Below are positions 1,315-28,329 of a DNA stretch of 33,520 nucleotides, in pieces. Location of the stretch: contig WGEY01000074.1 of the NCBI GenBank assembly GCA_015492495.1, forward strand, positions 1-33,520. Direction: 5' to 3'. Source of the DNA: Deltaproteobacteria bacterium (lineage in GTDB: Bacteria; Desulfobacterota; GWC2-55-46; DRQE01). A program made the position numbers and the translations under genes. Every line of letters begins with the position of its first letter. Within the stretch, counting starts at the first letter, position 1. Below the pieces are notes generated by a model that was not told the DNA's origin, searched no databases, and saw nothing but the letters and a program-made list of their open reading frames with translations.

Positions 1315-1318
1315 GACG

Positions 1319-1519: not shown

Positions 1520-1567
1520 CCCTTTTCTTTTCATGCACGGAAAATGCACACAAGGAGGATGTATACG

Positions 1568-3346: not shown

Positions 3347-3993
3347 CGAGGGACGTGGACTTCGGGCTCTACCTCATAACTGACAGGCGCCGGATCGGTG
3401 GAAGGGACCTCTGCGAGGTATTGAAGCAGGCCCTCGACGGCGGGATAAGGGCCGTCCAGTTGAGGGAAAAGGACCTTCCGGGCGGAGAGCTCTTCAGGCT
3501 CGCGGAACGGTTGAGGGCGTTGACCTTGAGCTACACCGCAAGGCTCTTCGTCAACGACAGGGTCGATGTGGCGCTTGCGGTGGATGCGGACGGCGTGCAC
3601 CTCGGACAGAGGAGTTTCTCGGCGACGGATGCGAGGCGACTCGTCGGGAAAGAGAGGCTCATCGGGGTTTCGACCCACAACATCGAAGAGGCGTTGAAGG
3701 CAGAGAGAGACGGCGCGGACTTCGTCACATTCGGCCCGGTCTACCATACGCCGTCAAAGGCGGCCTACGGGGAGCCGGTGGGGCTCGAACCCCTGGAGAG
3801 GGTCGTGAAGCTCCTCAAGATACCGGTCTTCGCCATAGGCGGGATCAAAAAGGACAATATCCGCGAGGTGCTCAATGCCGGAGCAGGCGGTGTGGCCCTC
3901 ATATCGGCTGTGCTGGAGAGCCCCGAGGTCCGTGGGAGCGCCGCAGGGATGATCGGGGAGTTGGGAATAAAAACACAAAGGAGTGGATCATGA
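3343..3993 (+). CDS. thiE: Thiamine phosphate synthase ThiE
   Basis: 216-residue TIM-barrel enzyme that condenses hydroxymethylpyrimidine pyrophosphate with thiazole phosphate to give thiamine monophosphate. Family motifs are YLITDRR at the N-terminus, VQLREKDLPGGEL, LFVNDRVDVALAVDADGVHLGQ split over two strands, GPVYHTPSKAAYG and the phosphate-binding AIGGIKKDNIREV. The frame continues far upstream as a shadow of lgt. The ATG at 3343 overlaps the lgt stop by ATGA and gives the normal length, so it is the start. It overlaps thiC in the same ATGA way, so lgt, thiE and thiC are translationally coupled. Confidence 0.95.
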   Translation: MTRDVDFGLYLITDRRRIGGRDLCEVLKQALDGGIRAVQLREKDLPGGELFRLAERLRALTLSYTARLFVNDRVDVALAVDADGVHLGQRSFSATDARRLVGKERLIGVSTHNIEEALKAERDGADFVTFGPVYHTPSKAAYGEPVGLEPLERVVKLLKIPVFAIGGIKKDNIREVLNAGAGGVALISAVLESPEVRGSAAGMIGELGIKTQRSGS

Positions 3994-5270: not shown

Positions 5271-5304
5271 GGGGCGCTGTTACGCCGCGGCGAAGGTACA
5301 CCGG

Positions 5305-11902: not shown

Positions 11903-11904
11903 TG

Positions 11905-12072
11905 TCAGGACCTCCTGTCGGATACTTCGTGTTGGAATGCGTCGGCGGACCGGGACGGACCGTCCTGCAATACCTGGGCGGGAGGTTTGGGCGGCCCCTT
12001 TCTCCCACACCCCGCGACAACCATGCCCGCCATGGAGATCAACAACAAGACGATCAGGAATCCGCGCTTCAT
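11905..12072 (-). CDS. lptM: LptM-like small outer-membrane lipoprotein
   Basis: 55-residue lipoprotein: Lys-Arg at positions 2-3, a hydrophobic stretch about 4-19, lipobox VAGC, then GRKGPPKPP, which matches the CGxKGPLxxP signature of YifL/LptM and PF13627-type lipoproteins. In E. coli LptM helps mature the LPS translocon LptD/E and is encoded next to dapF; here it precedes lysA-dapF, so the neighbourhood is conserved. ATG 12072 follows GGGGAAAGGA with a short spacer; GTG 12090 would add six residues before the Lys-Arg. The tail after the motif is short and polar. Confidence 0.8.
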   Translation of the reverse strand: MKRGFLIVLLLISMAGMVVAGCGRKGPPKPPAQVLQDGPSRSADAFQHEVSDRRS

Positions 12073-12108
12073 AAGTCCTTTCCCCGTCACAGCCTTTAAA
12101 TGATTATT

Positions 12109-13503
12109 CTAACCCTTTTTGAGCTCGCGTTCCACCATTTCGAGCTGTTTTTTCACTGACTCCACCGAGGTGCCTCCGCGGACCTTCCTTGAGTTGAGCG
12201 ACCTCTCGACCGCCACGACGTCCTTGATGTCGGCTTCAAAGAGCGGCGAAAATCTCTGCCATTCGCCGAGGTCGAGCTCCTCGAGCCCCTTGCCCCTTTC
12301 AATGCAGTACGCGACGGCCTTGCCCACCACCTCGTGCGCCTTGCGGAAAGGAACCCCTTTGGCCGCGAGGTAGTCCGCGGCATCCGTCGCCGTAAGAAAC
12401 CCTTCGACCGTGGCCTTTCTCATCTTCGACCTCCGGACCTTCATGGTCCTGAGCATGCGCGCAAAGACGGCGAGGACGGCCTTGAGCGTGTCCACGGTAT
12501 CGAAGAGCGGCTCCTTGTCCTCCTGCATGTCCTTGTTGTAGGCGAGGGGAAGGGCCTTCATCACCGTAAGGACAGCCATGAGGTTGCCGTAGACCCTACC
12601 GGTCTTACCCCTTGCGAGCTCCGCGAGGTCCGGGTTCTTCTTCTGCGGCATTATGGAAGAGCCCGTTGAGTACTTGTCCGACAGCTCTATGAAGCCGAAC
12701 TCCTGCGAGGACCAAAGCACGATCTCCTCTGCGAGGCGTGAAAGGTGCATCATCAGTATGGCCGCGCACGAGAGGAACTCCAGTACGAAGTCCCTGTCGG
12801 AAACACCGTCCATGCTGTTCTCCGTGACCGAGGAAAAGCCCAGGAGCCTTCTTGCGTACTCCCTGTCGAGGTTGTAGGGGCTGCCTGCGAGCGCCCCCGA
12901 GCCCAGCGGCATGACGTCCACCCTCTTCAGGCAGTCGAGAAGCCTTTCACCGTCCCTTTTGAGCATCTGGTAGTAGGCGAGAAGGTGGTGGCTGAGTAAA
13001 ACCGGTTGGGCCCTCTGAAGGTGGGTGTAGCCTGGCATGACGGTTTCGGTGTGCCTCTTGGCAAGTACGTAAAGCGCCTTTTTAAACTTCCCGACGAGCT
13101 TGAGGATCTCCCGGATCTCGTCCTTGAGGTAGAGCCTCACATCGAGCGCCACCTGGTCGTTTCTCGACCTCCCGGTATGGAGCTTTCCGCCGAGCGGGCC
13201 TATCTTCTCTGTGAGCCTCTTTTCAACGGCCATGTGTATGTCTTCAAGCTCCGGGCTCAGGACGAACCCGCCCCCGGCTATCTCTGACTCCACCTCGCGG
13301 AGCCCCCTTATTATGGTATCGGCCTCCTTCCTCGTCAGTATCCCGGCCCTCTGGAGAACCTTCGTGTGCGCGATGGAACCTCTTATGTCGTGTCTGAAAA
13401 GACGCGCATCGAACGACAGGGAGGCGTTGAGCTTCTCTGCGAGCTCGTCCACCTCGGCCTTGAACCTCCCTGACCATGGCTTCTTCGTCGATTCGGTGCT
13501 CAT
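12109..13503 (-). CDS. argH: Argininosuccinate lyase ArgH
   Basis: 464-residue tetrameric lyase that splits argininosuccinate to arginine and fumarate, the last step of arginine synthesis. It starts with the typical KPWSGRF, has HTGRSRNDQVALD, PGYTHLQRAQP, and the fumarase/aspartase-family signature GSSIMPQKKNPD. ATG 13503 overlaps the preceding stop as ATGA with GAGGAG about 10 bases upstream. Length is normal. It shares the operon with dap/lys genes rather than other arg genes. Confidence 0.97.
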   Translation of the reverse strand: MSTESTKKPWSGRFKAEVDELAEKLNASLSFDARLFRHDIRGSIAHTKVLQRAGILTRKEADTIIRGLREVESEIAGGGFVLSPELEDIHMAVEKRLTEKIGPLGGKLHTGRSRNDQVALDVRLYLKDEIREILKLVGKFKKALYVLAKRHTETVMPGYTHLQRAQPVLLSHHLLAYYQMLKRDGERLLDCLKRVDVMPLGSGALAGSPYNLDREYARRLLGFSSVTENSMDGVSDRDFVLEFLSCAAILMMHLSRLAEEIVLWSSQEFGFIELSDKYSTGSSIMPQKKNPDLAELARGKTGRVYGNLMAVLTVMKALPLAYNKDMQEDKEPLFDTVDTLKAVLAVFARMLRTMKVRRSKMRKATVEGFLTATDAADYLAAKGVPFRKAHEVVGKAVAYCIERGKGLEELDLGEWQRFSPLFEADIKDVVAVERSLNSRKVRGGTSVESVKKQLEMVERELKKG

Positions 13504-14444
13504 AGGTCAAGCTCCTCCATGATACCCGCGTAAAGAAGCGGTACCATTATCTCATGGTGTCCGGTAAGCACATAGCCCCTGCCCCCCTGCATCGTGGGCC
13601 TTCTGACGACATTGGTGGTGGGCCGGTAGTGCTGTATGAAGTCCATGTTCACGGTGGTGAAGTTCCTGACGGTGTGCCCCAGGTTCCTTGCCAGCGTGAG
13701 CGCCTTGAGGAAGACCTCGGGGATGACGACGGCCGAGCCTATGTTCAGGAAGACCCCGCCCTCGAGGCTGCTTACGACCGACGCAAGGAGCCTGAAGTCC
13801 AGGTGTGAGCCCTTGCCCGTGGCGCTGCCGTCCATCTGCGGGTGGATGTGTATTATGTCGGTTCCAAGCGCCACGTGCACCGTTACCGGCACCCCCAACC
13901 TCGCACCGGCTGCAAGGATGCTCAGCTCCTTGTTGGGAAAGCGCGAGCGTGCTATCATCTCGCCCACGGACCGGCCTATGCCCATGTTTTTCCTGGCCCC
14001 GGCCTTTATCGCCTTGTTCAGGAGCCTGCCCGTCTCCTCGGCCATTCCGAATCCGCCCTCGCCGAGTTCGCTGTCAACGTCCTCGGAGGTACAGCCCGCG
14101 TACGCAAGCTCGAAGTCGTGCACGATGCAGGCGCCGTTCATGGCCACGGCGTTTATGACGCCGCGCTCCATGAGGTCTATGACGAGCGGGCTCAGGCCCA
14201 CCTTGATGACATGCGCCCCCATGCCCACGGCCACGGTCTTCCCTCCCCTGTGAGCATCGGCCACGGCCGAGATTACTGCCCTCAGGTCCCTTGCCGCGAG
14301 TATCCGCGGCAGCCCTTCCAGAAGATCCCGGACCGTCCCGCCCTTCTTCGGTACGGCGGCCAGGTCTTTCAGGGAGACCTTGCTCTTTCTGTCCTTGATG
14401 GAGTATGTCTTGATACCCCTTGTGGAGATGGGCTTGAACTTCAT
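13500..14444 (-). CDS. Deoxyhypusine synthase-like protein of unknown reaction
   Basis: 314 residues related to deoxyhypusine synthase: a Rossmann-like fold with GAHVIKVGLSP, MNGACIVHDFE and GTDIIHIHPQMDGSATGKG. The lysine-containing SWGKI motif that forms the enzyme intermediate in true DHS is not visible; the corresponding C-terminal region reads NFTTVNMDFIQHYRP. Bacteria lack eIF5A, so a hypusine role is unlikely, and it may be a NAD-dependent enzyme of another polyamine or sugar reaction. ATG 14444 overlaps the gmhA stop (ATGA) with AAAAAGG upstream, and its stop overlaps argH. It is therefore locked between gmhA and argH. Superfamily is fairly sure; function is unknown. Confidence 0.75.
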   Translation of the reverse strand: MKFKPISTRGIKTYSIKDRKSKVSLKDLAAVPKKGGTVRDLLEGLPRILAARDLRAVISAVADAHRGGKTVAVGMGAHVIKVGLSPLVIDLMERGVINAVAMNGACIVHDFELAYAGCTSEDVDSELGEGGFGMAEETGRLLNKAIKAGARKNMGIGRSVGEMIARSRFPNKELSILAAGARLGVPVTVHVALGTDIIHIHPQMDGSATGKGSHLDFRLLASVVSSLEGGVFLNIGSAVVIPEVFLKALTLARNLGHTVRNFTTVNMDFIQHYRPTTNVVRRPTMQGGRGYVLTGHHEIMVPLLYAGIMEELDL

Positions 14445-15025
14445 GCCGAGACCTTTTTGAAGAGGATGTGGTCGACGAGCTCGCATATGATGTGGCAGAC
14501 CGTTATGTGCACCTCCTGGATCCTGGGGGTCGATACGGCGTCGACGTTCAATACTATGTCGGACCTTGCCGAGAGCTCACCGCCGCCTGCGCCGGTGAGC
14601 GCGATCGTCTTTATGCCGAGCGCCCTGCAGGTTGCGACCGCCTCCACGACGTTCGCGGAGTCGCCGCTTGTGGATATCGCAAGTAGCACGTCGTTTTCAC
14701 GGCCGAGGGCCTTTATCTGCTTCGAAAAGAGGAGGTTGAAGTCATAGTCATTGCCTATGCTCGTGAGGACCGAGGAGTCGGTTGTGAGCGCGACGGCCGG
14801 AAGCGGCGGCCTTTCTATCTCGAAGCGGTTCACGAACTCCGCGGCCACATGCTGCGCGTCCGCGGCCGAGCCGCCGTTGCCTATCACCATGAGCTTTCCA
14901 CCGGACTTCAGCGCCTCGGCGATCAGCTCCGAGGCCTCGATGACCGCGGAGATGTTCCGTTCAGTAAAGAACCGCTCCTTTGCCTTGATGCTCTCATTGA
15001 ATGAATTCAAGACGAGTTCTTCCAT
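14441..15025 (-). CDS. gmhA: Sedoheptulose 7-phosphate isomerase GmhA
   Basis: 194-residue SIS-domain enzyme that converts sedoheptulose 7-phosphate to D-glycero-D-manno-heptose 7-phosphate, the first step of LPS heptose synthesis. Signatures are VIGNGGSAADAQHVAAE, LTTDSSVLTSIGND, STSGDSANVVEA and the C-terminal HITVCHIICELVD. The open frame runs 29 codons further up into repeat DNA; ATG 15025 (MEELVLNSF) gives the family length, although its Shine-Dalgarno is weak. It is first in a nine-gene run and supports a Gram-negative host. Its promoter may lie far upstream (15464-15493), beyond the repeats. Confidence 0.94.
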   Translation of the reverse strand: MEELVLNSFNESIKAKERFFTERNISAVIEASELIAEALKSGGKLMVIGNGGSAADAQHVAAEFVNRFEIERPPLPAVALTTDSSVLTSIGNDYDFNLLFSKQIKALGRENDVLLAISTSGDSANVVEAVATCRALGIKTIALTGAGGGELSARSDIVLNVDAVSTPRIQEVHITVCHIICELVDHILFKKVSA

Positions 15026-15070
15026 GTGACCCGTAGTGACGATACTCCTTCCCTGCCCATGTGAAGATTC

Positions 15071-15104
15071 CTTGGCTGCGAAAAAAATCTTCGAAGCAGC
15101 CAAG
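15071..15104. repeat. Hairpin at edge of repeat cluster
   Basis: CTTGGCTGC (15071-15079) and GCAGCCAAG (15096-15104) form a perfect 9-base stem around a 16-base loop. It lies between the GTCATTGCGA element and gmhA. There is no T-run, so it is not a standard terminator. Confidence 0.6.
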
Positions 15105-15107
15105 GCA

Positions 15108-15200
15108 GTCATTGCGAGGGCCTTTGGCCCGAAGCAATCTCCAAGTAATCGATTTCTTTCAATGACTCATCGCTGGATGCTTCACTTCATTCGCAATGAC
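15108..15200. repeat. GTCATTGCGA / TCGCAATGAC dispersed repeat element
   Basis: GTCATTGCGA (15108-15117) and TCGCAATGAC (15191-15200) are perfect 10-base inverted ends of a 93-base element that also contains GAAGCAATCTC (15131-15141). This GTCATTGCGAG...GAAGCAATCTC pattern is a repeat I recognise as widespread in several unrelated bacterial groups. It encodes nothing. A further CACAATGAC at 15425-15433 looks like the right end of a second, diverged copy. Confidence 0.75.
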
Positions 15201-15225
15201 GATTCGGCTAAAATGCACAGCGTGC

Positions 15226-15257
15226 GCCTGTCTGCCGTGACTACGGCACAGGCAGGC
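15226..15257. repeat. GCCTGTCTG...CAGGCAGGC palindromic repeat, copy 1
   Basis: Palindrome beginning GCCTGTCTGCCGT and ending ACGGCACAGGCAGGC, with TGCCGT/ACGGCA as the inner stem. A related copy is at 15378-15406. A separate perfect hairpin, CCGCAGC/GCTGCGG, follows at 15263-15278. Confidence 0.7.
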
Positions 15258-15377
15258 ATTATCCGCAGCTTGCTGCGGGAATGCGAGCGAATACAAAAGA
15301 TATATTCCTTACATTTGAAGATTCACGCGGCTTGCCACGATGAACTTCAATTAACAGAGTATCCTTAAAGTATTGTC

Positions 15378-15406
15378 GCCTGTCTGACGTCACTGCACAG
15401 GCAGGC
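15378..15406. repeat. GCCTGTCTG...CAGGCAGGC palindromic repeat, copy 2
   Basis: Shares GCCTGTCTG at the left and GCACAGGCAGGC at the right with the copy at 15226-15257, with a different centre (ACGTCACT). Two copies 120 bases apart in the same orientation, plus the GTCATTGCGA element, make this spacer a composite of mobile-like repeats. Confidence 0.7.
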
Positions 15407-15463
15407 GCCGCGCCCTCCGCGGCTCACAATGACTACTTTTCCGCACCCTGTCAGGGGTATCTG

Positions 15464-15493
15464 ATATTATCTTTCGTCCAAGGTGGGTGTCAA
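15464..15493 (-). promoter_or_regulatory. Candidate sigma70 promoter for the gmhA-dap operon
   Basis: On the minus strand TTGACA (15493-15488) is followed by GATAAT (15471-15466, 16-base spacer) or TAATAT (15469-15464, 18-base spacer). It lies just after the M29 peptidase stop and points to gmhA, whose start is about 440 bases downstream. The repeats fall in the resulting 5' UTR. A closer promoter cannot be excluded. Confidence 0.55.
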
Positions 15494-15536
15494 GTATTTA
15501 TACGGTGCGGCGGGCTCCGGTCCATGGGCCACGTGG

Positions 15537-16607
15537 CTATATCCTGAACCTGCCGTCCTTCTGGACGAGCCTTCCGTCTATGTACAGTTTGCCGCCTTTT
15601 CTGAGGTCCTTTATCATGTCCCAGTGTATGGCGGACCTGTTCTTGCCGCCCGCCTCCTCGTAGGACCTCCCTATGGCAAGGTGCACCGTGCCGCCTATCT
15701 TCTCGTCGAAGAGTATGTCCTTTGAAAACCGGCTTATCCCGTAATTGACGCCGATGCCTAACTCCCCGAGGTACCTTGCACCCCTGTCCGTGTCGAGCAT
15801 GGAGAGGAGAAACTCTTCGTTCTTATCGGCACTGGCCTCGACGACCTTGCCCTTCCTGAACCTGAGCCTTATGCCCGTGACCTCCCTGGCCTGGTATATC
15901 GCGGGCATCTCGTAGTATATGTACCCCTCGGCCGAGTTCTCCACCGGAGACATGAAGACCTCGCCGTCCGGCATGTTGTTCGATCCGTAGCAGGCGATCG
16001 CCTTTCTTCCCCGTATGCTCAACGTTAAGTCCGTGTCCTCTCCGACGATCCTTACCTCGCTTCCCTTGTCAAGGAGCCTCTTGAGCTTCATCTCCTCCTT
16101 CTTGACGCTTTTCCAGTCTATGTTGGTCGCGCCGAAGAGAAAGTCCTCGTACTCGGCGAGGCTCATGTCCGCCTCCTGGGCGAGGGCGTTCGTGGGGTAG
16201 TTGCACAGGACCCAGCGCTTCTTGTTGACGATCGTCTCCATTATCGGCATGAGCACCTTGCTCCTTGCGCCTACCTTCCCGGGGTCGATGTTTGAAAGCG
16301 CCTTCTTGTTCAGCGGCGCCCTTATGTTCACGACACAGTCTATGTTCTTCGCCTCGTAGTGCTTTATCCTGGGGAAGTTGAGGAGCTGCTGCTCCGAGGC
16401 CTTCTCATAGAAGATGTTCTGCGTCTCCTCGAAGGATATGCTGGTCATGGGATGGGCCCCGGCCTCCATGACCTCCCTGTAGACCTCCAGGACGAGGGGC
16501 TTTGCAAGCTCGCTCGACGAGCTTATGAGAACGGTCTCGCCCCTTTTGACACCCAGCGAATGACGGACAAGGATGCGTGCAAGCTCTTCAACCCTTGGAT
16601 CAGCCAT
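15537..16607 (-). CDS. M29-family aminopeptidase
   Basis: 356-residue cytoplasmic metallopeptidase of the M29 (AmpS/AmpT/thermophilic aminopeptidase) family, removing N-terminal residues from peptides. Metal-ligand regions are recognisable: GEVFMSPVENSAEGYIYYE, the ELGIGVN segment, and the C-terminal HLAIGRSYEEAGGKNRSAIH with HWDMI. The length is slightly shorter than the usual 370-410. ATG 16607 has GGAGG four bases upstream. A spacer of about 110 bases separates it from the radical SAM gene upstream, and it may share that transcript. Confidence 0.9.
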   Translation of the reverse strand: MADPRVEELARILVRHSLGVKRGETVLISSSSELAKPLVLEVYREVMEAGAHPMTSISFEETQNIFYEKASEQQLLNFPRIKHYEAKNIDCVVNIRAPLNKKALSNIDPGKVGARSKVLMPIMETIVNKKRWVLCNYPTNALAQEADMSLAEYEDFLFGATNIDWKSVKKEEMKLKRLLDKGSEVRIVGEDTDLTLSIRGRKAIACYGSNNMPDGEVFMSPVENSAEGYIYYEMPAIYQAREVTGIRLRFRKGKVVEASADKNEEFLLSMLDTDRGARYLGELGIGVNYGISRFSKDILFDEKIGGTVHLAIGRSYEEAGGKNRSAIHWDMIKDLRKGGKLYIDGRLVQKDGRFRI

Positions 16608-16719
16608 CTTCCCTCCCTTTTCTTCCGAAGTGTGCAGCGCGGTACAGGCCGCCGCGAAGCGTCCCCCTGCACGCATGCGCGCTGCCCGCAGCCCTTCCTG
16701 CAGGCTGCGAAGGGGGCTC

Positions 16720-17634
16720 TCAGCCGCGCCACCTCACACCCTGGCGGGTGTCCCTGGCCTCGAGGAGCCCCTCTATCCTTTCCTTTATGATGAACTTGTT
16801 CACACCCCACCGGGGTGCCACGACGTATCGTGCCGGCGCATCCCCGGAGAGCCTGTGAACCACGACCCGGGGCGGCAGGAGTTCAAGCGATTCTACCACG
16901 AGCCGCACGTATTCTTCAAGGCCGAGGGGCTTGAGCCCGCCTTTCAGGTACGTATCTTCCAGGGGCGTGCCGCAGAGGACCGTAAGCTGGTGGAACTTGA
17001 TGCCCCATACCCCGAGCTCCGAGACGAACCTTACGGTGCCGAGCATGTCATCTTCCTTCTCCCCGGGAAGCCCGAAGATGACGTGCGCGCAGACGTCTAT
17101 GCCGCGTCCCCTGGCCCTTTCGACGGCATCCCTGAAGTCGGCGGAGGTGTGCCCCCTTCCTATGCGCTCGAGTGTCGCGTCGTTTGCGGACTGAAGCCCC
17201 ATCTCGAGCCACAGCGCCTTCCTGGAGCCTATCTCCTCGAGGAGGTCGAGCACATCGTCCGGAACGCAGTCCGGCCTTGTGGATATGCAGAGGCCCGCCA
17301 CCTCGGGATGACGGACCGCTTCTTCATAGAGGTCCCTCAGGCGGCCCGTATCCGAGTAGGTATTGGTGTTCAACTGGAAGTACGCTATGAACCTCTCGGC
17401 CCCGTGCCTCTTTCTTACCCATTCCACGCCGGAGTCGATCTGTTCGGTTACGGTGCGCCTGCCCTTGTGGGCCTTGGGCACCAGGCCCGCCGGGTTGCAG
17501 TAGGCGCATCCGCCGCGTGACTTCGTGCCGTCGCGCGTGGGGCATGTAAAGCCCCCGTCCACGGTGACCTTGTAGACCTTGCAGCCGAAACGCCTTCTCA
17601 GATAGGCGGAAAGGGTGTTGTACCGTTCAGTCAT
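16720..17634 (-). CDS. TIGR01212-family (YhcC-like) radical SAM protein
   Basis: 304-residue radical SAM protein. The cluster cysteines are C31, C43 and C46 in CPTRDGTKSRGGCAYC, an unusual CX11CX2C spacing typical of this family. FQLNTNTYS, LCISTRPDCVPDDVLDLL, WLEMGLQSAND and HVIFGLPGE are family segments. The exact reaction is not known to me; the family is often linked to RNA modification. The ATG at 17634 overlaps the end of rqcH by 8 bases, so the two are coupled, which is suggestive of a translation-related role. Confidence 0.88.
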   Translation of the reverse strand: MTERYNTLSAYLRRRFGCKVYKVTVDGGFTCPTRDGTKSRGGCAYCNPAGLVPKAHKGRRTVTEQIDSGVEWVRKRHGAERFIAYFQLNTNTYSDTGRLRDLYEEAVRHPEVAGLCISTRPDCVPDDVLDLLEEIGSRKALWLEMGLQSANDATLERIGRGHTSADFRDAVERARGRGIDVCAHVIFGLPGEKEDDMLGTVRFVSELGVWGIKFHQLTVLCGTPLEDTYLKGGLKPLGLEEYVRLVVESLELLPPRVVVHRLSGDAPARYVVAPRWGVNKFIIKERIEGLLEARDTRQGVRWRG

Positions 17635-19084
17635 GTCGTCCCCGTCCTTTCGAAGCTCCCGGGGCGGGCCTTACCACGACCGTCCTGTACTCCCTGACCG
17701 AGACCGTACCGGGCCTTGCGCCCTTGGGCTTCTGTACATCCGCTGCATCGGCACAGATGACCTCCACCTTCGCCGATGAGCGCGCCTTGCTGTAGTACGC
17801 AGCGATGCAAGCCGCCTCTTCCACGGCCTCCTCCGTCGGCCTCCTGCCCCCTGTCTTCAAAAGGACGTGCGCGCCCGGGACCCCCTTTGCGTGGAACCAG
17901 AGGTCTCCCCGGCTTGCGTACCTCCTCGTAAGAAGGTCGTTACCCCTGCCGCTCTTGCCGCAGAGTATCTCGAAGCCGTCCTTTGAAAGGAACCTCCTCA
18001 CGGGCTCGGCGAGCGGCCTTCCCGTTCCTTCCCCGGCGGGTGGCCTGAGGTAGCCCGCCTCCATGAGCTCCTCTCTCAGGGCCTCAGCGTCCTCCTTGGT
18101 CTCCATGCACTCCCACTCGCAGAGGAGCCCTTCCGTGTACTCGATCTCCCGCTCGACCTCGGGTATGCGGTCTTTGAGCATCTCGAGCGCGGTCTTCGCC
18201 TTCCTGGCGCGCTTGAAGTACCTGTCCACGTTCTCGCGGGGCGAGAGAGCCGGGTCGAGCGGTATCCTGACCCTTTGCGGTGGTGTTGCGTAGTAGTCCT
18301 CCACCTCTATCCCGGTCACGCCCTTCTCGACCCTCTTGAAGTTGGCGAGAAGGAGCTCTCCGAGCCTGGAACACTGGATATCGGCCTCTGCCTTCCGCCT
18401 GTCGCCGATAAGGTTCTCGAGCTTTCTTTTCGCTCTTTGAGCCGCCCTTTTTATCACCTGCCTGAAGCGTCTTTTCTCGGCCTCGAGCTCTTCTGCGTCG
18501 ACGAGCCTCGAGTAGTAACGGTCAGCGGCCTGGTTCCATGTCTCGCCCTCTAGGGGTGTGATCTCCTCTTCCCTCATCGAAAGGCCCTCTGGCAGCGTGA
18601 GCGGGGTAAGCCTCACCCCGGGCACCACGGTCCTTGCTGCCCCCTGGGGGAAGTAACGCAGGGCGTCCAGTACCACGCCGTCCTCGTCGAGGAGTATCAC
18701 GTTGGATGATTTGCCCGTAAGCTCCGCAACGAGGGTGTAGCGGTGCCTCGTCTCTCTGTCCTCTTTGTCCCGCTTGACGAACCCGATACGCACTATCCTC
18801 TCGTCGTCGAGCTGGCTTACCCCCTCGATCCTCGCATCGTTGAGCCTGCTTCTCAAAAAGGCGCAGAAACGCAGGGGCACCGGCGGGTTCGGGTATCTTC
18901 TCGCGGTAAGGTGTATCCTCGAAAGGGTGGGGTGGGTCGATATGATGAGGTTGTGTTGCCTTCCCCTTGCGAAGACCTTGAAGATTATGTTCCTTGCATC
19001 CGGCTGATGGACCCTGGAGACCACGCCGCCGCGAAGTGTAGAGTCGAGCTCTGAGACTATCCTTTTAAGGAGCCTTGGACCCAT
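17627..19084 (-). CDS. rqcH: RqcH/NFACT ribosome-quality-control protein
   Basis: 485-residue NFACT protein. The N-terminal NFACT-N domain covers about 1-200, a long charged coiled coil about 200-345, and a C-terminal NFACT-R domain contains DLWFHAKGVPGAHVLLK and the PKGARPGTV...YRTVVV end motif. RqcH binds stalled 50S subunits with peptidyl-tRNA and adds C-terminal alanine tails for degradation; older annotations say fibronectin-binding. The Asp-Arg pair needed in B. subtilis RqcH (about 97-98) appears here as Glu95-Arg96. It is shorter than the 570-residue B. subtilis protein, mainly in the middle. No Shine-Dalgarno is clear at ATG 19084; TAAAAT 13-18 bases upstream might be a -10. Confidence 0.9.
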   Translation of the reverse strand: MGPRLLKRIVSELDSTLRGGVVSRVHQPDARNIIFKVFARGRQHNLIISTHPTLSRIHLTARRYPNPPVPLRFCAFLRSRLNDARIEGVSQLDDERIVRIGFVKRDKEDRETRHRYTLVAELTGKSSNVILLDEDGVVLDALRYFPQGAARTVVPGVRLTPLTLPEGLSMREEEITPLEGETWNQAADRYYSRLVDAEELEAEKRRFRQVIKRAAQRAKRKLENLIGDRRKAEADIQCSRLGELLLANFKRVEKGVTGIEVEDYYATPPQRVRIPLDPALSPRENVDRYFKRARKAKTALEMLKDRIPEVEREIEYTEGLLCEWECMETKEDAEALREELMEAGYLRPPAGEGTGRPLAEPVRRFLSKDGFEILCGKSGRGNDLLTRRYASRGDLWFHAKGVPGAHVLLKTGGRRPTEEAVEEAACIAAYYSKARSSAKVEVICADAADVQKPKGARPGTVSVREYRTVVVRPAPGASKGRGRHD

Positions 19085-19249
19085 GGTATGGATTTTAGCA
19101 CAGTAGCGTGGAGAAGGTGAGGATCTTTTGCACTACAGTGGCCCGGAGGCGCACCGGACCGGAACCCCGCGGGCTTGAGGCCAAGGGAAGAGCATGGCCA
19201 AGACGTTCTCTGCAGGGAACAATCAAGGTCACCCCTGAAAAACTCCCTT

Positions 19250-19278
19250 TTGACATGCTTCATACTCTCTGGTATATT
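19250..19278 (+). promoter_or_regulatory. Strong sigma70-type promoter
   Basis: TTGACA at 19250-19255, a 17-base spacer, and TATATT at 19273-19278. This is the best promoter match in the window. It points to the structured leader and the small gene at 19465, away from rqcH. Confidence 0.75.
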
Positions 19279-19284
19279 TGGACT

Positions 19285-19430
19285 GCTAAAAAATTCCGAG
19301 GGGCTGCCTCTGTCTTTACGGACAGGGCGGTCATTGCTACGGGTGCATGCGCGCCCGCAGATGCCCTGTACCGTGAGGTACCGGGGTGGCCTCCTCGGAA
19401 GCCACTAGCACATCTGCGGGCGCTTTTTTG
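19285..19430 (+). ncRNA. Structured leader or small RNA of unknown class
   Basis: Begins at the expected start of the 19250 promoter and ends in an intrinsic terminator. An upstream hairpin pairs CTGTC with GACAG plus GCC with GGC (about 19304-19329). Then a 13-base stem, GCGCCCGCAGATG (19351-19363) with CATCTGCGGGCGC (19411-19423), encloses two hairpins: GTACC/GGTAC and GTGGC/GCCAC. The result is a three-way junction followed by TTTTTT. It could be a riboswitch or attenuator for the gene at 19465, or a free sRNA of about 145 bases. It lacks the SRP-RNA tetraloop region, and I could not match it to a riboswitch class. Confidence 0.6.
19351..19429 (+). terminator. Intrinsic terminator closing the leader RNA
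   Basis: Perfect 13-base GC-rich stem (19351-19363 with 19411-19423) followed immediately by six T (19424-19429). The large loop holds two further hairpins, so the terminator is also the outer helix of the RNA, an arrangement that suits ligand- or factor-controlled termination. Confidence 0.75.
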
Positions 19431-19464
19431 TGCCCTTTGCTGAAAATCCGGGGAGGCGGGTGTT

Positions 19465-19734
19465 ATGGACGTCAATAACAACGGAAGACATAACGGTGTC
19501 CATGGTATCTTGCGGATCGGCGAGCACATCGCGGCCATACAGGAGGCGAGGGACAAGATCATGCCGGTCATAATGCTCATGTGCAGTACCGCGGGGCTGA
19601 ATCCGGATATGGGGGAGGTGCTTACAAAGGAACAGCTCGGAAACCTGGGCATCCTCCTCAAGGGGCTGCTGGACGAGGTCTTCAGTGCCGTGGACGGGAT
19701 AGACGATATATACAGGCGAAGTATCTGTATCTGA
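19465..19734 (+). CDS. Small helical protein of unknown function
   Basis: 89 residues, not recognised. GGGGAGG at 19450-19456 lies 8 bases before the ATG, and codon use (AGG, ATA) matches the core genes rather than the island, so it is probably real. The N-terminus is Asn/His-rich (DVNNNGRHN); the rest is predicted mostly helical with a hydrophobic patch (PVIMLMCSTAG) too short and mixed for a clear membrane span. It follows a promoter and a terminated leader RNA, so expression may be attenuated. It is convergent with the helicase gene, 38 bases away, and marks the core side of the island boundary. Confidence 0.65.
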   Translation: MDVNNNGRHNGVHGILRIGEHIAAIQEARDKIMPVIMLMCSTAGLNPDMGEVLTKEQLGNLGILLKGLLDEVFSAVDGIDDIYRRSICI

Positions 19735-19772
19735 AGCGGTCAGCTTGGACACCGGCTGATAATCATATAACC

Positions 19773-22700
19773 TTATTCTATAGGGGGCTCCAATGATATC
19801 TGCCACTGGCTCAGGTCGCTTTCTGAAAAAGTATTGTTCATTTGATTGGTCAGATACTCAAGAAGATCCTCTTGTCTTGGTTGACCGAATACAAGGCGGT
19901 AGACGGCAAGCATTCGTTTAAGTCGATGGAAATGCGGCACTTCCCTACTGAAGGCCAGGAGTGGAACACGCCTTTCTATTTGAGCACCTCCTTCAATTTC
20001 GTATAACCAATACGGTACGAGATCGCTTGCACCACTCGGCCGATCCTTTTTCGCCAGCTCAAACATAAAGCTCCAGGGGTCACCATTCCCGTCCCAAGCG
20101 CCTTTCAAGGCACTCAGGCCGTAAGACTTAGCCACGTTCTTTCGAATCGCATGGCCCTTGTATCTGTGAACACGCCCTTCGCGTTGCTCCAAGTCAACAG
20201 GATTACGTGGCAAGTTCCAGTGGATCACGGAGTGGCACCATGTGTGAAAGTCCAGGCCTTCCTGACCGATGGAAGTGGATGCCAAGATAAACGGCCTGAA
20301 AGGGGAGTTGAACGCCTCCCGAACAGTGTCGGCTCTAGCGACCGTCGCACCCGTTTCATCTTTCAACTCCGCGAATCGCAAGGCAAACCGGCAACGCATG
20401 TTGTAGCCTTCAAACTCTACCTTGCGGAGTTTCGGGCGCACAACGATTTCGTCAATCTGGAGCTGTGAAGTGCGGATCGAAAGAGATGAACCGATTGAAT
20501 CACCAATTGCTTTTGCCCGCTCAGTCTCGGCCTCATCAATGACGCCGAGTGATTCAACCAAGCAATGCGCTTGCTCATCAAGTAGTGACTGAATATTGCC
20601 TTGGAGGCAATACCTTAGGGTAAGCTTCCAGTAAGATGTCTCCGGCTCGTTTCCCCGCAAGAGTGCGATGGTTTCAGGTAGATTGAACAACGTTCTGAAA
20701 CCTTCTGAAATCCGCACAGCGCCGTAAAGCAATTCCGGAGCATCCCAATCAAGCGAGAAAGCAATTCGATGGAGTGCCCGAAGTGCACATACCCCTGGCC
20801 CAGCCACAGCCATTTGGGCAAGAACATGCATCAAATCCGCAGGAGGTCGTCCAAGAGGAGGATCAAGCTCACCATCCATGGCTTGACGGAAAAGCTCAAG
20901 GTGGTCCTTGAAACGTTCTCCACGCTCACCTGATCCATCTAAATTAACCGATGTCCATCCCATCTTCTCATCAACCATCCATTGGCGAAGAGCAGGGAAA
21001 CTTGCCGCGTCCAGCATGGCGGGCACTGCCCAATGCCACCGTTGGTCCTCCGGCCCGCTGTCAGGGGCCCCCTTCAACAGCATCTGAATATGAGGCTTGA
21101 GTACCTCTGCAACTTGATCCAACAGCACGTCGGATGATATCAATCCACTCTCTGCACGGTCCAATGCCAGCTTCAAAGGGTCTACAAAGGATGCCAGAGT
21201 TGGGCATGGATACAAAAGGAGAAGCATCGACATTCCAGTCAGCCGCCCGTCAGCACTTCGTGTGAATCGTAGAAGAGGTCGTAACTCCTTGTACAATTGG
21301 TCGTGACTTAGTTGCTTGGGTAACGCAGCAAGCATCCTGCGCTCTGCTTCATACGAACATAGAGAAGCAATTGCATCAGGAACCACATTCCATGCTGAGA
21401 ATACCAGGGCTTTTGTTACATCATGATTAATTTCGGCGTACGGTCCTTCCGGCTTGCTGTATGGCATGGAGGGCGGCATCCATAATGCTTTCCACAGCCC
21501 GTTGTCAATCGTATGGAAAAGTAAGTCGCGCATTCTTGGATTGGCTGGGTCCATCTCTCGGTAGGCTTGGATGTCGGCCTTCCGGAGAAGACGGCCGTTG
21601 TCGGCATTCAATGCCGCTAACAGTTCATTCGAGGCATTCTCACATTGTTCTTCAAGCTTTCGCCGGAATTCATATCGTCTGAGGAAGTTGATGAGATAGG
21701 GGCTTGATTTCCAATATTCGATAATATCTCGCGCTCCTACGATCGAGGCGACTCGATCCGCAAGAACGGCCTCATGCAGATCGCGTGGTTGCAAAGAGGG
21801 CTTCTCACGAGTTTCATGTAACATGGCATCTTGTGCCTGAGTCATACTTATCCGTTCGGTACGTGACATGACGCGACGAAGCTGAGACTGCAGGCGATCC
21901 CGTGCATGACTGATGTCTGATCCTTTGTCCGGCACAAGAAGGTAAAGCGCCCGCCTGAATGCCTGGATTTCTCTCTTGACCTCCTCAACTGCAGCATCAG
22001 ACTCAAACAAAAACCGTAAAGTATTCAAAAAGTCTGGATAATGATCGTCCTCCTGTTCGTTGTCGAACGAAAGCATCTTGTATGGCGTAGCCGACAAAAG
22101 CAGGGTTTTGACGCCTGGATACTGGAATAGCCTCTGAGCTAGTCGAGCCTCTGGATTGCTATAATCGAGCAGGTTCTTGAACCGCTGAAACTCATCAAGG
22201 ATGATCAAGTCAGGCTCAAGCATTTCGAGGCTCATTTCGGCTAAACGAAATCGGAGCTCTGAAACTAGTTCAAGTCGCTCAGGATCATCCCACAAAACCC
22301 TCCGTTTGGATCGGGCGCAGAAGTCAGTTATTCGTTGGTGCAGCGCGTTGTCGGAGAGAATAATCTTCACGAAGCCATCCGCGATATTCTTATCCACGCT
22401 CTCCGGTTTCCATTCATGTGTCCACCACTGCCAGTTGTCGTCACTCACTCGGCACTGAAGTAGTCGACGTAAACCGGCGGGGCTGACCCTAAGGCGTTTT
22501 TTGAGAAGGTGATGGATTAGGGCTCGCTCCTGGACGTGGCCGTCCCGCGATTTCGGATCAAAACTCGTTCCAGGGGTCAGGCTGACGTAGTTCACATGGT
22601 TTCTACGGATATCAGCTATTTCCATCGGCAGCAGGGACAGCCGTGTTGGTCTTACAAATTCCTGCACTCCAGAAACGTTCAACCGGTGAATATTCTGAGA

Positions 22701-22952
22701 TGCAATGCTGACGTTAGAACAAATATATACGATATCGACCCGGTCCACTTTACCCCGCAAGTGCTCTATCGCTTTAGCAATAATGCCGCGAGCAACAAGC
22801 GTTTTACCAAGGCCTACCTCATCAGCCACGAGAAATCGGTTAGTCGGATCAGGATCGAGATAGAAACGGCGAAATACATATTCCACGGTACGCCGCTGGA
22901 AATCCTTCAACCTGGCGAGAACGCGCTCGGTATCGTGCCTTTCCGTGCTCAC
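19773..22952 (-). CDS. SNF2-like helicase of a DUF6361-PLD-helicase operon
   Basis: About 1059 residues. The ATPase core has Walker A ADEVGLGKT (about 43-51), Walker B DEFQRF (about 253-258, replacing DEAH), SATP (about 287-290), and late motifs STSIGQEGLDF and LEQREGRVHRYKGH, an SF2/SNF2 arrangement. Some 550-600 residues sit between the lobes, far more than in a minimal helicase. It should translocate on nucleic acid using ATP. GTG 22952 overlaps the PLD stop (GTGA) and has GGAGG 7 bases upstream; an upstream ATG at 22991 is less likely. GC is visibly lower than in flanking genes and AGG/ATA use is reduced, which suggests transfer. The fold of the insert is unknown to me. Confidence 0.85.
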   Translation of the reverse strand: MSTERHDTERVLARLKDFQRRTVEYVFRRFYLDPDPTNRFLVADEVGLGKTLVARGIIAKAIEHLRGKVDRVDIVYICSNVSIASQNIHRLNVSGVQEFVRPTRLSLLPMEIADIRRNHVNYVSLTPGTSFDPKSRDGHVQERALIHHLLKKRLRVSPAGLRRLLQCRVSDDNWQWWTHEWKPESVDKNIADGFVKIILSDNALHQRITDFCARSKRRVLWDDPERLELVSELRFRLAEMSLEMLEPDLIILDEFQRFKNLLDYSNPEARLAQRLFQYPGVKTLLLSATPYKMLSFDNEQEDDHYPDFLNTLRFLFESDAAVEEVKREIQAFRRALYLLVPDKGSDISHARDRLQSQLRRVMSRTERISMTQAQDAMLHETREKPSLQPRDLHEAVLADRVASIVGARDIIEYWKSSPYLINFLRRYEFRRKLEEQCENASNELLAALNADNGRLLRKADIQAYREMDPANPRMRDLLFHTIDNGLWKALWMPPSMPYSKPEGPYAEINHDVTKALVFSAWNVVPDAIASLCSYEAERRMLAALPKQLSHDQLYKELRPLLRFTRSADGRLTGMSMLLLLYPCPTLASFVDPLKLALDRAESGLISSDVLLDQVAEVLKPHIQMLLKGAPDSGPEDQRWHWAVPAMLDAASFPALRQWMVDEKMGWTSVNLDGSGERGERFKDHLELFRQAMDGELDPPLGRPPADLMHVLAQMAVAGPGVCALRALHRIAFSLDWDAPELLYGAVRISEGFRTLFNLPETIALLRGNEPETSYWKLTLRYCLQGNIQSLLDEQAHCLVESLGVIDEAETERAKAIGDSIGSSLSIRTSQLQIDEIVVRPKLRKVEFEGYNMRCRFALRFAELKDETGATVARADTVREAFNSPFRPFILASTSIGQEGLDFHTWCHSVIHWNLPRNPVDLEQREGRVHRYKGHAIRKNVAKSYGLSALKGAWDGNGDPWSFMFELAKKDRPSGASDLVPYWLYEIEGGAQIERRVPLLAFSREVPHFHRLKRMLAVYRLVFGQPRQEDLLEYLTNQMNNTFSESDLSQWQISLEPPIE

Positions 22953-24751
22953 GTGTTGGCCTCCGCCATAGCATCCTCGAAGATGTTCCACAATGCGATG
23001 AACTGTGGAGGCACAATCGATGCGGTTGTTTCATCACGCATCAATCGTCGTATAACCGCCTCCACGTCCTTGAGTTTCTTTGGGTTGCGGCTAAAGGCCC
23101 TGGTAAGTTCTTCGAGAATCGGTATCTCCCCTACAAAGGCTTCCGTCCACGAACTGGTACCACGCCCGTCATTGAACAAACTTCTGGTTTCGAGAACATC
23201 GCCAGCATACTCTCCGAGCAGCAAGAGAATGTATCGCAAGAACCCCTCACGATTATTAAGGACGAGCCTAAAAATGGCTTCATCTCGTTTTTCAGGAAGG
23301 CCATCTACCGGAAGATTCAGGACCATACGAAGCGATATTTTCTTAGCCTCTGCGACAAGATCGAAGGCAATGAGACCTGTAACAGACTCTGTGGCATATC
23401 GTCCAAGTCCAGCGGGTTCTCCGCGGGCCAAACCGCTCGAATCCGCTGCCCGGTCCTCTGAGACAGTGATTGGCCAGGCCCGGACCTGGGAAATCCCATC
23501 CATGGGAAGCTTTTCGGGGGACATGAGAGCTAACTCCCACGCATCCTCGCACGCTTGGCAGACAACCTTCAAGCGCGCTTCAGCCAAACGGTCTCGTGCT
23601 GTCTCGAGCGCTTTGCGCGCGCGTATCTCGTCATCATCAGGTTGTGCCGCTTCATCCGTTTGAACGTACTTTGAAAGGAGTGGGCCAAGACCACCTTCTT
23701 CCAGAAGCGATCCAACGCCGCCAATGCGGCTGGTCCTACCAATCAGCTCAACGAGTATCTCGGTATTGGAACGTTGAAGGAGAGCCGCGGCAGTTGCGTT
23801 TGCCGAACCAAGATAAAGGTGCGTCCGCCACCCTTTTTCGAGAACATATACTTTGGCATGGAGGCCAATGGTGTCACGCTGTTCCGCTTCCTCGCCATCC
23901 TCTGTCTCAGCAGCTTCGTCAAGCGTATACCACTGGTCGACTTCTTTGAGCACAACCGGTGTAAGTTGTTTCAGCTCGTCCGGCCTGGAGATAACGGCGG
24001 AAAACTCATCCGTCAGCTTGCTCAACCATGTAAGAGCATCCGCCGTCAAGAAAGGTGAAATGACGGCCATTCGTTTTGACCACGGTGGCGTCCATGATTT
24101 GCCATCGATTCCCAGGACATGAAAAGCCACACTCTCGAATCCATCAGGCAGTTCCCATGATACCTTCCTGACCTCCTCGGCAAGCCGTTTGGCCTGACGT
24201 TTTCTTGACCGCGAAACAGGTCGAGTACACATGGACGGAAGGGCCTGCAAGAACTCACCCAATCTGCGGTTGGCCGCGATGTAACGGCCTCCCGGCCTGC
24301 CTTCAAGTTGGAGCGAGATATCCCAAGAGCGGTCATAGGTTATGTTTCGCGATAAGACAAGGACCCTGATTAGCGGTGGTTCGTTGATTTCTGGTTGCAC
24401 AAAACGCAGAACCCATATTTTCGGATGAAACGCTCCGCCACGCGGTGCCTTGACCGGCATGACCATGGACTCGAGTAAGCCGAATAGAACATTATCGCCT
24501 GATGGAGGTCTCATCCCGGTATGATCCACGTACACACTAAAGCGATCTGATAATCGGCGAAGGGATTCCAGCAGACGTATCGGATCGGCGTTTGTTATAG
24601 ACGTGCGGTCTGCAAGCGCCAGGTTAGTCGGAAGAGAAAGTAAAGCGGCCGGGTCAAGGGAGTATGTGGTGGCCAAAGCCTGATCAAATACATATCCGGG
24701 CGGCGGGGTAACGGCGGCTGTATACAAGCTTCTCGCGTCAGGATTCAACAT
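22949..24751 (-). CDS. Phospholipase D-family protein with two HKD-like motifs
   Basis: 600 residues with two PLD half-sites. The first is H109-x-K111 (AFHPKIW) with SRNIT at 134-138; the second is H298-x-K300 (GLHAKVYV) with GSANAT at 315-320 and E331. In defence loci such as DISARM (DrmC) and Dpd (DpdK), PLD-family partners accompany helicases and are thought to act as nucleases; lipid hydrolysis is less likely here because there is no signal peptide. About 345-600 has no motif I know. ATG 24751 overlaps the DUF6361 gene by 14 bases and its stop overlaps the helicase start by 4, so the three are translationally coupled. Confidence 0.85.
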   Translation of the reverse strand: MLNPDARSLYTAAVTPPPGYVFDQALATTYSLDPAALLSLPTNLALADRTSITNADPIRLLESLRRLSDRFSVYVDHTGMRPPSGDNVLFGLLESMVMPVKAPRGGAFHPKIWVLRFVQPEINEPPLIRVLVLSRNITYDRSWDISLQLEGRPGGRYIAANRRLGEFLQALPSMCTRPVSRSRKRQAKRLAEEVRKVSWELPDGFESVAFHVLGIDGKSWTPPWSKRMAVISPFLTADALTWLSKLTDEFSAVISRPDELKQLTPVVLKEVDQWYTLDEAAETEDGEEAEQRDTIGLHAKVYVLEKGWRTHLYLGSANATAAALLQRSNTEILVELIGRTSRIGGVGSLLEEGGLGPLLSKYVQTDEAAQPDDDEIRARKALETARDRLAEARLKVVCQACEDAWELALMSPEKLPMDGISQVRAWPITVSEDRAADSSGLARGEPAGLGRYATESVTGLIAFDLVAEAKKISLRMVLNLPVDGLPEKRDEAIFRLVLNNREGFLRYILLLLGEYAGDVLETRSLFNDGRGTSSWTEAFVGEIPILEELTRAFSRNPKKLKDVEAVIRRLMRDETTASIVPPQFIALWNIFEDAMAEANT

Positions 24752-25958
24752 GGCCGCCCCCGTTTAATCCAGCATGAAGGTCAGCGAGCAGCCTTTTCAC
24801 ATTAGGCCACCGGTACGCCATCTGGCCAACACCGGCATAACCCTTCCACTGATCCCTCGCCCGAGAATTCGTGAAGCGAGACCGTACGCCCTTAAGCTGT
24901 CGTTCGCGCGAGCTTACAATATTTCTGCACTCGACATCATCGGTCACGTCGCCCCCGGTAGCTCGAACACGACGGATCCAAGCTGTAACAAATTCTTTTG
25001 TCCGCCTGGTGATGGTGTGCCCTCTTCCGATTATCAACTCCCATAAACCTTCAAGAGGAAGATCCCGTCTTTGGCAGTTCAGCAGCCGGGCCTTCCACTC
25101 GACCAAATTATCGCGGTGCTCTTTCTTTAGTTTCTTCCGGCCGGCTAGTTCCGCCAGCATAAGGTTGTACAGGAATGCTGCCCCATGCATGATAGTTGAA
25201 AAGAATTCCGCATAGTTCAGAATCTCTTTATGTTCTCTTGAAAACCCCCCGCAATCAGGATGCTGCCACGGAAAATCGCATTCAACAGGTTTAAAGCTCA
25301 GTGCTAAATGAGCTAAAAGGCTCTCCTTCTGGGATTTCAGAATGCGATCCAGCAGAAAGCTTGCTTCGTCCGGCTCCAGATTAAAGCTTAGGCCTTCGAT
25401 CTTATCGGGGAAGCCGTCAGGGGGTTCAGGTAGTCGCGGATGCCATGTGAGGGTTTCAGACTCTGTAAAGTCGTCTTCCTCGTACCGACCTCGGATAGAA
25501 TCACGACGCCGGTATACTTCGTCAATATAGCGATGATACTCATCCTGGGAACAGGATACCAAGCGAATACCCCAAACTCCCAGCCCGTTCCAGTAGACAG
25601 AACTGGGTAATCGCTTCAGAGCCTTCCCCGCAACTCTGCCAAAGATTCCTGCCTGATCCTCGTTTTCCAACAATGGTTCAACCAGAGCCATTTCCATCTG
25701 ACGCGCTTTGATTGCAAAGTGAGGTGGCGCGATTCGCTTTCTTTCCAGTTCACGGTAGACCCATGGAACGAACAGCATGTACCGCAGTCTGGTCTGGATG
25801 GTACTAGTGCCTGGAAACAGCGTATCAGCAAACGAATCCCTAATCGCGCCCAGGCCAAGTTCATCCCGACTCTCCTTCTCCTGGAAGAGCGAGAGGATGC
25901 GTAACGCTCTATCTCGAGCAGTTGGATCATGGTCTATCCATGTCAAGGTAGACGGCAT
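24738..25958 (-). CDS. DUF6361-family protein
   Basis: 406 residues. The N-terminus carries the DUF6361 pattern: TWIDHDP, RDELGLGAIRDSFAD, LFPGTSTIQTRLRY and MLFVPWVYRELE. No catalytic motif, membrane segment or zinc site is evident; the C-terminal third is basic. The function is not known to me. The conserved part resembles a recognition or scaffold domain more than an enzyme, but that is inference. ATG 25958 follows AAAGGT at a 6-base spacing. It is first in the three-gene operon. The spacer upstream (25959-26120) has TATAAT at 26113-26108 on this strand but no convincing -35. Confidence 0.8.
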   Translation of the reverse strand: MPSTLTWIDHDPTARDRALRILSLFQEKESRDELGLGAIRDSFADTLFPGTSTIQTRLRYMLFVPWVYRELERKRIAPPHFAIKARQMEMALVEPLLENEDQAGIFGRVAGKALKRLPSSVYWNGLGVWGIRLVSCSQDEYHRYIDEVYRRRDSIRGRYEEDDFTESETLTWHPRLPEPPDGFPDKIEGLSFNLEPDEASFLLDRILKSQKESLLAHLALSFKPVECDFPWQHPDCGGFSREHKEILNYAEFFSTIMHGAAFLYNLMLAELAGRKKLKKEHRDNLVEWKARLLNCQRRDLPLEGLWELIIGRGHTITRRTKEFVTAWIRRVRATGGDVTDDVECRNIVSSRERQLKGVRSRFTNSRARDQWKGYAGVGQMAYRWPNVKRLLADLHAGLNGGGHVES

Positions 25959-26120
25959 TTGGCAAACCTTTGTTGTCCTCTTCGGGAATCGGGAGAAAAA
26001 CCCTCGCCTTTAGTACGCCCGCAGGGCCGAAAGTAAATTTCTCAGGGGGATGTAATAGACGTGCGGATTTTAAGGTGCGTACCCGTTTTGCAGGTTTTGG
26101 CGGCTGGATTATAGAGGTTT

Positions 26121-26349
26121 TTAAGCCGCAACGTACTGACGGACATCCACCTGGACACCCTTTTTTGCCGCCTCTTCCGCTGTGCTCATGAGCCGTGCCG
26201 TAACCTCCTCAACCCACCTATGCTTCTCCGCGGTTTGAGCAGACCTCCGCAGGGACACCCTTGATAACCAGGGTCATCTCACCTCGCTCAAGGATAACCG
26301 TTGCCTTGCCGGGCTTGGTTTCACCATTTTTACAGATTACGCACATCAT
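26121..26349 (-). pseudogene. Decayed YgiT-type zinc-finger antitoxin gene
   Basis: From ATG 26349 the frame gives MMCVICKNGETKPG, then TVILERGEMTLVIKGVPAEV and CSNRGEA, and stops at TAG (26220-26218) after 43 residues. YgiT-type proteins have two CxxC zinc sites. The first is intact (C3, C6), but the second reads C37-x-x-R40, a single-base TGC to CGC change. Shifting frame by one at 26221 recovers the rest of the family (RWVEEV, then EEAAKKGVQVDVRQYVAA) down to TAA at 26121. A 2-base loss from GCATATAGG would explain it. The ATG overlaps the DUF4258 stop (ATGA), with GGAG upstream, the normal order of a toxin-antitoxin pair. Confidence 0.82.
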
Positions 26350-26612
26350 GGCTTCTTTCTCCTTTTAAAACCAAGCTCCCATTCATTAAGATCCGGCTCG
26401 TGTACCGTGACAATGATAGTTTCCTCGACGTTATCTGCTGCAACTACATGCAAGGGCCGTTTTCCGGACCATGTCAGGACCAGCCTGCTGGGATATGGCC
26501 TGTCATTATCATACTCTTCTATCACTTCACCTGTCAATAGTGCCTAACGCACGTCTTCACGGCTTATCCCGCACTCGAACATGCGCTGGATTGCATGGAT
26601 CCTGAAAACCAA
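26346..26612 (-). pseudogene. DUF4258 toxin-like gene interrupted by in-frame TAG
   Basis: Reading from about TTG 26612 gives VFRIHAIQRMFECGISREDVR, then TAG at 26546-26544, then ALLTGEVIEEYDNDRPYPSR and a C-terminus with RPLHVVAADN and TVHEPDLNEWELGFKRRKKP. Both halves match one continuous DUF4258 protein (His-Ala-x-x-Arg-Met helix, EEY..DRPYPS, PLHVV, W-x-x-x-FK-x-RK), so the TAG replaces a single residue. DUF4258 proteins are commonly paired with YgiT zinc fingers as toxin-antitoxin modules. The C-terminal part alone could start at TTG 26537, but it would lack the N-terminal helix. The remaining alternatives are a sequencing error or TAG readthrough. Confidence 0.8.
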
Positions 26613-26770
26613 CCTGTTTGAGGAGATGCTGGCTACAAAGAATTATTTGTCGCTTTGCTTTTTAAGACGGGTCTGTCGTGACAACCCCGTAACCCCGCCT
26701 TGCTTGCTGAAGGCGATACCCTGCTCCTTGGGCTGGAACGGACGTGTTCGGAGAGTAATTCTTAAAGTTC

Positions 26771-26856
26771 TGGCGGAGGGCAAGGGACTCGAACCCTCAA
26801 GGGCGTTAACCCGGCGGTTTTCAAGACCGCTGCCTTACCAATTAGGCTAACCCTCC
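26771..26856 (-). tRNA. tRNA-Ser (anticodon TGA)
   Basis: Class II tRNA: acceptor GGAGGGT with GCCCTCC, discriminator G, encoded CCA (26773-26771), D arm TAGCCTAATTGGTAAGGCA, anticodon stem GCGGT/ACCGC closing CTTGAAA (anticodon TGA), and a long variable arm GGGTTAACGCCC before GGGTTCGAGTCCC. It lies directly after serS on the same strand. Its 3' end faces the accessory island. Confidence 0.97.
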
Positions 26857-26913
26857 TTGCATGAAGATTCGCGGCAGGCCGGGGCCTCCGCGCAGAAGGC
26901 CCCATAAAAAACA

Positions 26914-28329
<1,416 letters not shown>

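Follow-up and report, generated by a model that had tools for sequence, protein, structure and literature searches.

A three-gene operon beside a serine tRNA gene matches the named anti-phage defence system Azaca in full

Introduction

Azaca was named as an anti-phage defence system in 2022 by Millman et al., as cited in PMC10952713 and PMC12278908, the former of which places it among the systems with a PLD-like domain. "Azaca (ZacC)" also appears among the DefenseFinder helicases (PMC12278908), Azaca has been called by PADLOC in Halococcus and is reported to be rare in archaea (PMC13321033), and a 2026 review enters its mechanism as unknown (PMC12926258). The name is linked to sequence here through the PADLOC models and these secondary papers. 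We analyzed a stretch of 33,520 nucleotides (hereafter the window) in which an earlier note had singled out a three-gene operon as a candidate undescribed defence system. Judged by its protein sequences, the locus is almost certainly Azaca, and it is very probably a complete, horizontally acquired operon of this system.

Results

The window carries zacA, zacB, and zacC next to each other, in that order and on a single strand, as in Azaca (Table 1). ZacA matched its PADLOC model with an E value of 1e-136 (residues 1-399 on model positions 1-395 of 396), ZacB with an E value of 1e-175 (model positions 1-584 of 586), and ZacC with an E value of 0 and 1162 bits (residues 19-1069 on model positions 4-1016 of 1019), compared to 63 bits for the second-best PADLOC helicase match to ZacC. 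For the trio, Pfam returned only DUF6361, one weak match to PLD, and fragmentary SF2 helicase matches. The window copy is complete and apparently intact. The full zacABC set, its conserved order, and its defence-gene neighbourhoods in other genomes bear out the earlier reading of the locus as a three-gene defence operon. That reading went further and took the system to be undescribed, a proposal that by its own account would not survive a match to a named system. Since the trio matches the named ZacA, ZacB, and ZacC, the novelty claim is refuted; the trio is a member of an already known system, not a new one.

Table 1. Azaca genes and adjoining features in the window
Feature	Coordinates	Strand	Size	Assignment
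zacA, DUF6361 protein, first operon gene	24738..25958	-	406 aa	PF19888; PADLOC PDLC03828
zacB, PLD-family protein, predicted nuclease	22949..24751	-	600 aa	PADLOC PDLC03829
zacC, SNF2-like SF2 helicase/translocase	19773..22952	-	1059 aa from GTG at 22952	PADLOC PDLC03830
DUF4258 fragment, toxin-antitoxin-like remnant, between tRNA-Ser and zacA	26349..26537	-		PF14076, E 2e-12
tRNA-Ser(TGA), boundary of variable slot	26771..26856	-		ARAGORN

Two overlaps join the genes, one of 14 bases between zacA and zacB (24738-24751) and one of 4 bases between zacB and zacC (22949-22952, GTGA). The zacC open reading frame could also begin at an upstream GTG (19773-22991, 1072 amino acids); the start given in Table 1 is most likely the right one according to the alignment, in which the homologues begin there. 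GC3 is 0.52-0.53 in the three genes versus 0.77-0.84 in six further genes of the window, serS and rqcH among them, and the GC content is 0.50-0.54 across 19-27 kb versus 0.54-0.63 elsewhere. The earlier description of minus-strand genes overlapping by 14 and 4 bases, with a composition unlike that of both flanks, thus agrees with the open reading frame coordinates and the GC3 values.

The protein features described earlier, namely, DUF6361 in the first gene, a PLD protein with two HKD-like sites, and an SNF2-like helicase of about 1059 residues, were likewise recovered. DUF6361 was found in ZacA with an E value of 8e-74. A profile search of solved structures gave no credible relative of known function for ZacA, and its AlphaFold model, built from a two-sequence alignment, was too poor to use (mean pLDDT of 35). 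ZacA may serve as an adaptor/regulator or a sensor.

In ZacB, the Pfam PLDc_2 match is weak (E 0.005), but two half-sites, H109-x-K111...(S/T)RN136 and H298-x-K300...GSxN318, are both kept in the homologues (15 homologues were considered). The predicted PLD assignment is therefore weak by Pfam alone and firm by residue conservation, and the two half-sites can be enough for one putative PLD active site. "HKD-like" is the right wording for them because both lack the acidic residue that a classical HKD motif carries and have R116 and E305 instead. Among solved chains, the ZacB profile best matched PDB 7clg, deposited as a putative helicase (E 2e-5), and weakly matched the restriction endonuclease PDB 2c1l (E 0.27); the match of ZacB to RE_NgoFVII had an E value of 0.07. 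The AlphaFold model of ZacB, again from a two-sequence alignment, was also too poor to use (mean pLDDT of 31).

The best outside relatives of ZacC include DrmD, BrxHI, DpdE, and RapA. Motifs I (GLGKT), II (DEFQ), III (SAT), V, and VI are invariant across 18 aligned homologues, with the exception of one whose annotation is shortened at its start codon. The window proteins agree with the conserved Walker A, DEFQ, SAT, and motif V/VI residues of ZacC and with both HxK...N half-sites of ZacB, and the predicted catalytic motifs of both are intact. The "very large inter-lobe insert" reported earlier for the helicase holds as to the large amount of extra sequence but not as to a single insert: it is split into about 225 residues from motif III to motif IV and about 370 residues from motif IV (about 514-520) to motif V (893-902).

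Adjacency of the three genes in other genomes, which had been proposed as a check, was observed in all of the loci compared: order A-B-C and a single strand are shared by 28/28, ZacC being cut by a contig end in one of them. These loci span Thermodesulfobacteriota, Pseudomonadota, Bacteroidota, and one haloarchaeon. They were taken from Desulfocarbo indianensis and eight other genomes of its phylum, from plasmids of Cronobacter, Bradyrhizobium, Rhizobium, Agrobacterium, Shinella, Mesorhizobium, Methylocystis, Phaeobacter, Janthinobacterium, Niveispirillum, Haliscomenobacter, and the archaeon Halomarina, and from one gut contig labelled as phage; an archaeal plasmid, Cronobacter pESA3, Bacteroidota, and a Ti plasmid are thus represented. 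Across 15 loci, the pairwise distances of ZacA, ZacB, and ZacC correlate at 0.972-0.985, a measure that by itself takes no account of shared history, and none of 5000 permutations reached these values. Given the constant order and the correlated distances, zacABC seem to move and evolve together.

Within the phylum Thermodesulfobacteriota, to which Desulfocarbo belongs and in which the window is placed by way of Desulfocarbo, ZacA is present in 10 of 297 genomes. Among the nearest-relative genomes searched, full-length ZacC occurs only in the window's own genome; in the 58 others, no full-length ZacC was found, and the matches were helicase-motif fragments. The window zacABC are 68-75% identical to those of Desulfocarbo indianensis.

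On Cronobacter sakazakii pESA3 (10932-18189), as on Cronobacter IncFIB plasmids, a tyrosine recombinase gene is followed by Azaca, and zacA is found in 19 Cronobacter plasmid records; the annotation of the genes goes no further than DUF6361, phospholipase D, and helicase related. A search of E. coli genomes for DNA similarity to Cronobacter zacA and zacB gave no match, a search that more diverged copies could escape. One stop lies in zacA of locus L027 (3863-5086) and one in zacB of the Ti plasmid pTiL-11 (13154-15010), which suggests that some Azaca copies may be decaying in their hosts. No relative of Azaca was found in the viral contigs scanned, and phage carriage is without support beyond the one unannotated gut contig, MT835621.

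In the window, the gene order is serS, tRNA-Ser, Azaca, and rqcH (19085-26914). In the relatives G297 and G300 (loci L072 and L073), serS-tRNA-Ser and rqcH are kept with other genes between them. In G297, these encode a GGDEF-like protein together with a nucleotidyltransferase/HEPN-like pair; in G300, they encode an RNA helicase along with a SulP-like transporter, all named from their translations rather than by family search. The interval between serS-tRNA-Ser and rqcH is thus a variable slot. The low GC3, this slot, and the absence of full-length ZacC from the 58 nearest relatives searched uphold the view that the operon was acquired horizontally, beside the serine tRNA gene. No att-like direct repeat linked with the tRNA emerged when positions 19000-27000 were searched for repeats. 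Toxin-antitoxin remnants, which the earlier note had placed next to the trio, are plausible on one side, where the DUF4258 fragment lies; the 43-residue stretch that follows it matches the YokU antitoxin below threshold (E 0.06). The two are probably a decayed toxin-antitoxin pair.

Enrichment of defence genes near the trio, another check proposed earlier, was observed at nine chromosomal Azaca copies: at an E value of ≤1e-30, their neighbours matched 69 PADLOC families (87 proteins) versus 10 for controls (80 proteins from four of the same genomes), a count that redundancy among the type I restriction models inflates. The neighbours include type I restriction-modification, DrmD-like helicase, TmtA-like (Tiamat), MkoC-like (Mokosh), and DpdJ-like proteins, and the annotations next to the plasmid copies include AbiE pairs, restriction-modification genes, and ubiquitin-like modules.

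In 11 of the 28 loci, an AddAB-like pair consisting of a PD-(D/E)XK nuclease and a UvrD helicase, sometimes with a WYL regulator, directly adjoins Azaca. The pair lies upstream of zacA on rhizobial and Niveispirillum plasmids (L033, L037, L075-L079, and L083) and downstream of Azaca in Desulfocarbo, Methylocystis, and genome G267, the last being less resolved because the stretch read there takes in no more than the beginning of the UvrD gene. Examples of its coordinates are 14381-19338 in L002, 17695-23119 in L081, and 716-4328 in L024. One alphaproteobacterial lineage accounts for 8 of the 11 pairs, and Desulfocarbo and Methylocystis carry another. The UvrD protein of the rhizobial type shows a likeness to AddA that falls short of the curated cutoff, the PD-(D/E)XK proteins tested had no PADLOC match, and the pair is absent beside the window's copy. 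On six rhizobial plasmids (L037 and L075-L079), genes for Multiubiquitin, ThiF, and mostly also DUF6527 lie at about 800-5700, upstream of the AddAB-like pair and Azaca, making this a recurrent multisystem block on conjugative plasmids. As an observation, AddAB-like pairs beside Azaca may be less familiar. They could provide Azaca with DNA ends or process such ends for it, or they could form a defence module of their own that has not been described; a functional link between the two is unlikely.

Discussion

For a system listed with its mechanism as unknown, a comparison of 28 loci with invariant residues makes pointed mutants possible. On the basis of its predicted domains, Azaca more probably than otherwise acts by DNA-targeting, ATP-driven helicase-nuclease interference. 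ZacC has the SF2 motifs required for ATP-driven movement on DNA, and a translocase that would engage DNA and feed a nuclease is the simplest reading. ZacA, ZacB, and ZacC would work as one unit in which ZacC spends ATP to engage invading DNA and move along it. Its target would be some property of phage DNA that is entering the cell or replicating, and not missing methylation, because the operon has no methylase. The half-sites of ZacB would form one PLD active site that cuts the DNA presented by ZacC, and ZacA may couple or restrain ZacB and ZacC, as coupler or sensor.

Azaca could instead act by abortive infection in the manner of Hachiman, with the helicase sensing damaged or aberrant DNA and freeing ZacB to destroy all the DNA of the cell. 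We regard this as unlikely, if the most serious of the alternatives. The combination of helicase sensor and nuclease effector has been shown for Hachiman (PMC12278908), and Azaca, like Hachiman, has no modification enzyme to mark self DNA. However, ZacB carries a PLD site in place of the HamA nuclease, and the best relatives of ZacC mark it as SNF2-like whereas HamB is Ski2-like; sequence does not separate cell-sparing from cell-killing action.

The initial claim of an undescribed system is now very improbable. DUF6361 is the sole Pfam name of ZacA, we found no paper mentioning DUF6361, and neither ZacA nor ZacB is covered by an NCBIfam model, but all three genes fit the named models almost end to end, and the name Azaca is already in use in the phage-defence literature. 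A false lead is thereby removed, with a trio annotated no further than DUF6361 turning out to be named. Even less credible is a divergent DISARM or Dpd remnant: PADLOC shows partial similarity of ZacC to the DrmD and DpdE helicases and of ZacB to DrmC, but DrmD reaches ≤54 bits and DpdE ≤41 bits versus 1162 for ZacC, only short helicase and PLD motifs are covered, and the full-length ZacABC matches rule this reading out and, with DrmB, methylase, and DpdA absent beside the trio, confirm the earlier judgment that it is neither system.

Among described systems, DISARM (DrmC PLD protein with DrmD/DrmA helicases) resembles Azaca in having a PLD protein and an SNF2-like helicase, but the trio has a DUF6361 protein instead of DrmB (DUF1998) or a methylase, and the similarity is motif confined. 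No DrmB, DrmA core, or methylase gene lies between serS and rqcH, and the trio only weakly matches the DrmD/DrmC motifs. Dpd shares a weak likeness of its SNF2-like helicase DpdE to ZacC (56 bits with the NCBIfam DpdE model, against a cutoff of 500), but neither DpdA nor 7-deazaguanine genes lie near the trio, and the interval from serS to rqcH, with the trio in it, leaves no room for DpdA and 7-deazaguanine synthesis genes. Hachiman (HamAB) also combines a helicase with a nuclease of a formerly unknown family and lacks a modification enzyme, but its helicase family and nuclease differ, and it has two genes where Azaca has three; the PADLOC matches listed for ZacA, ZacB, and ZacC include neither HamA nor HamB. 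The BfiI/NgoFVII-type PLD restriction nucleases share the HxK...N half-site with ZacB, with weak similarity, but ZacB has two half-sites per chain and no recognisable specificity domain. With Azaca itself, from which nothing diagnostic differs, the likeness extends to all three genes, the near full-length model matches, the gene order, the PLD domain, and the helicase in ZacC, here in a copy from a Thermodesulfobacteriota genome.
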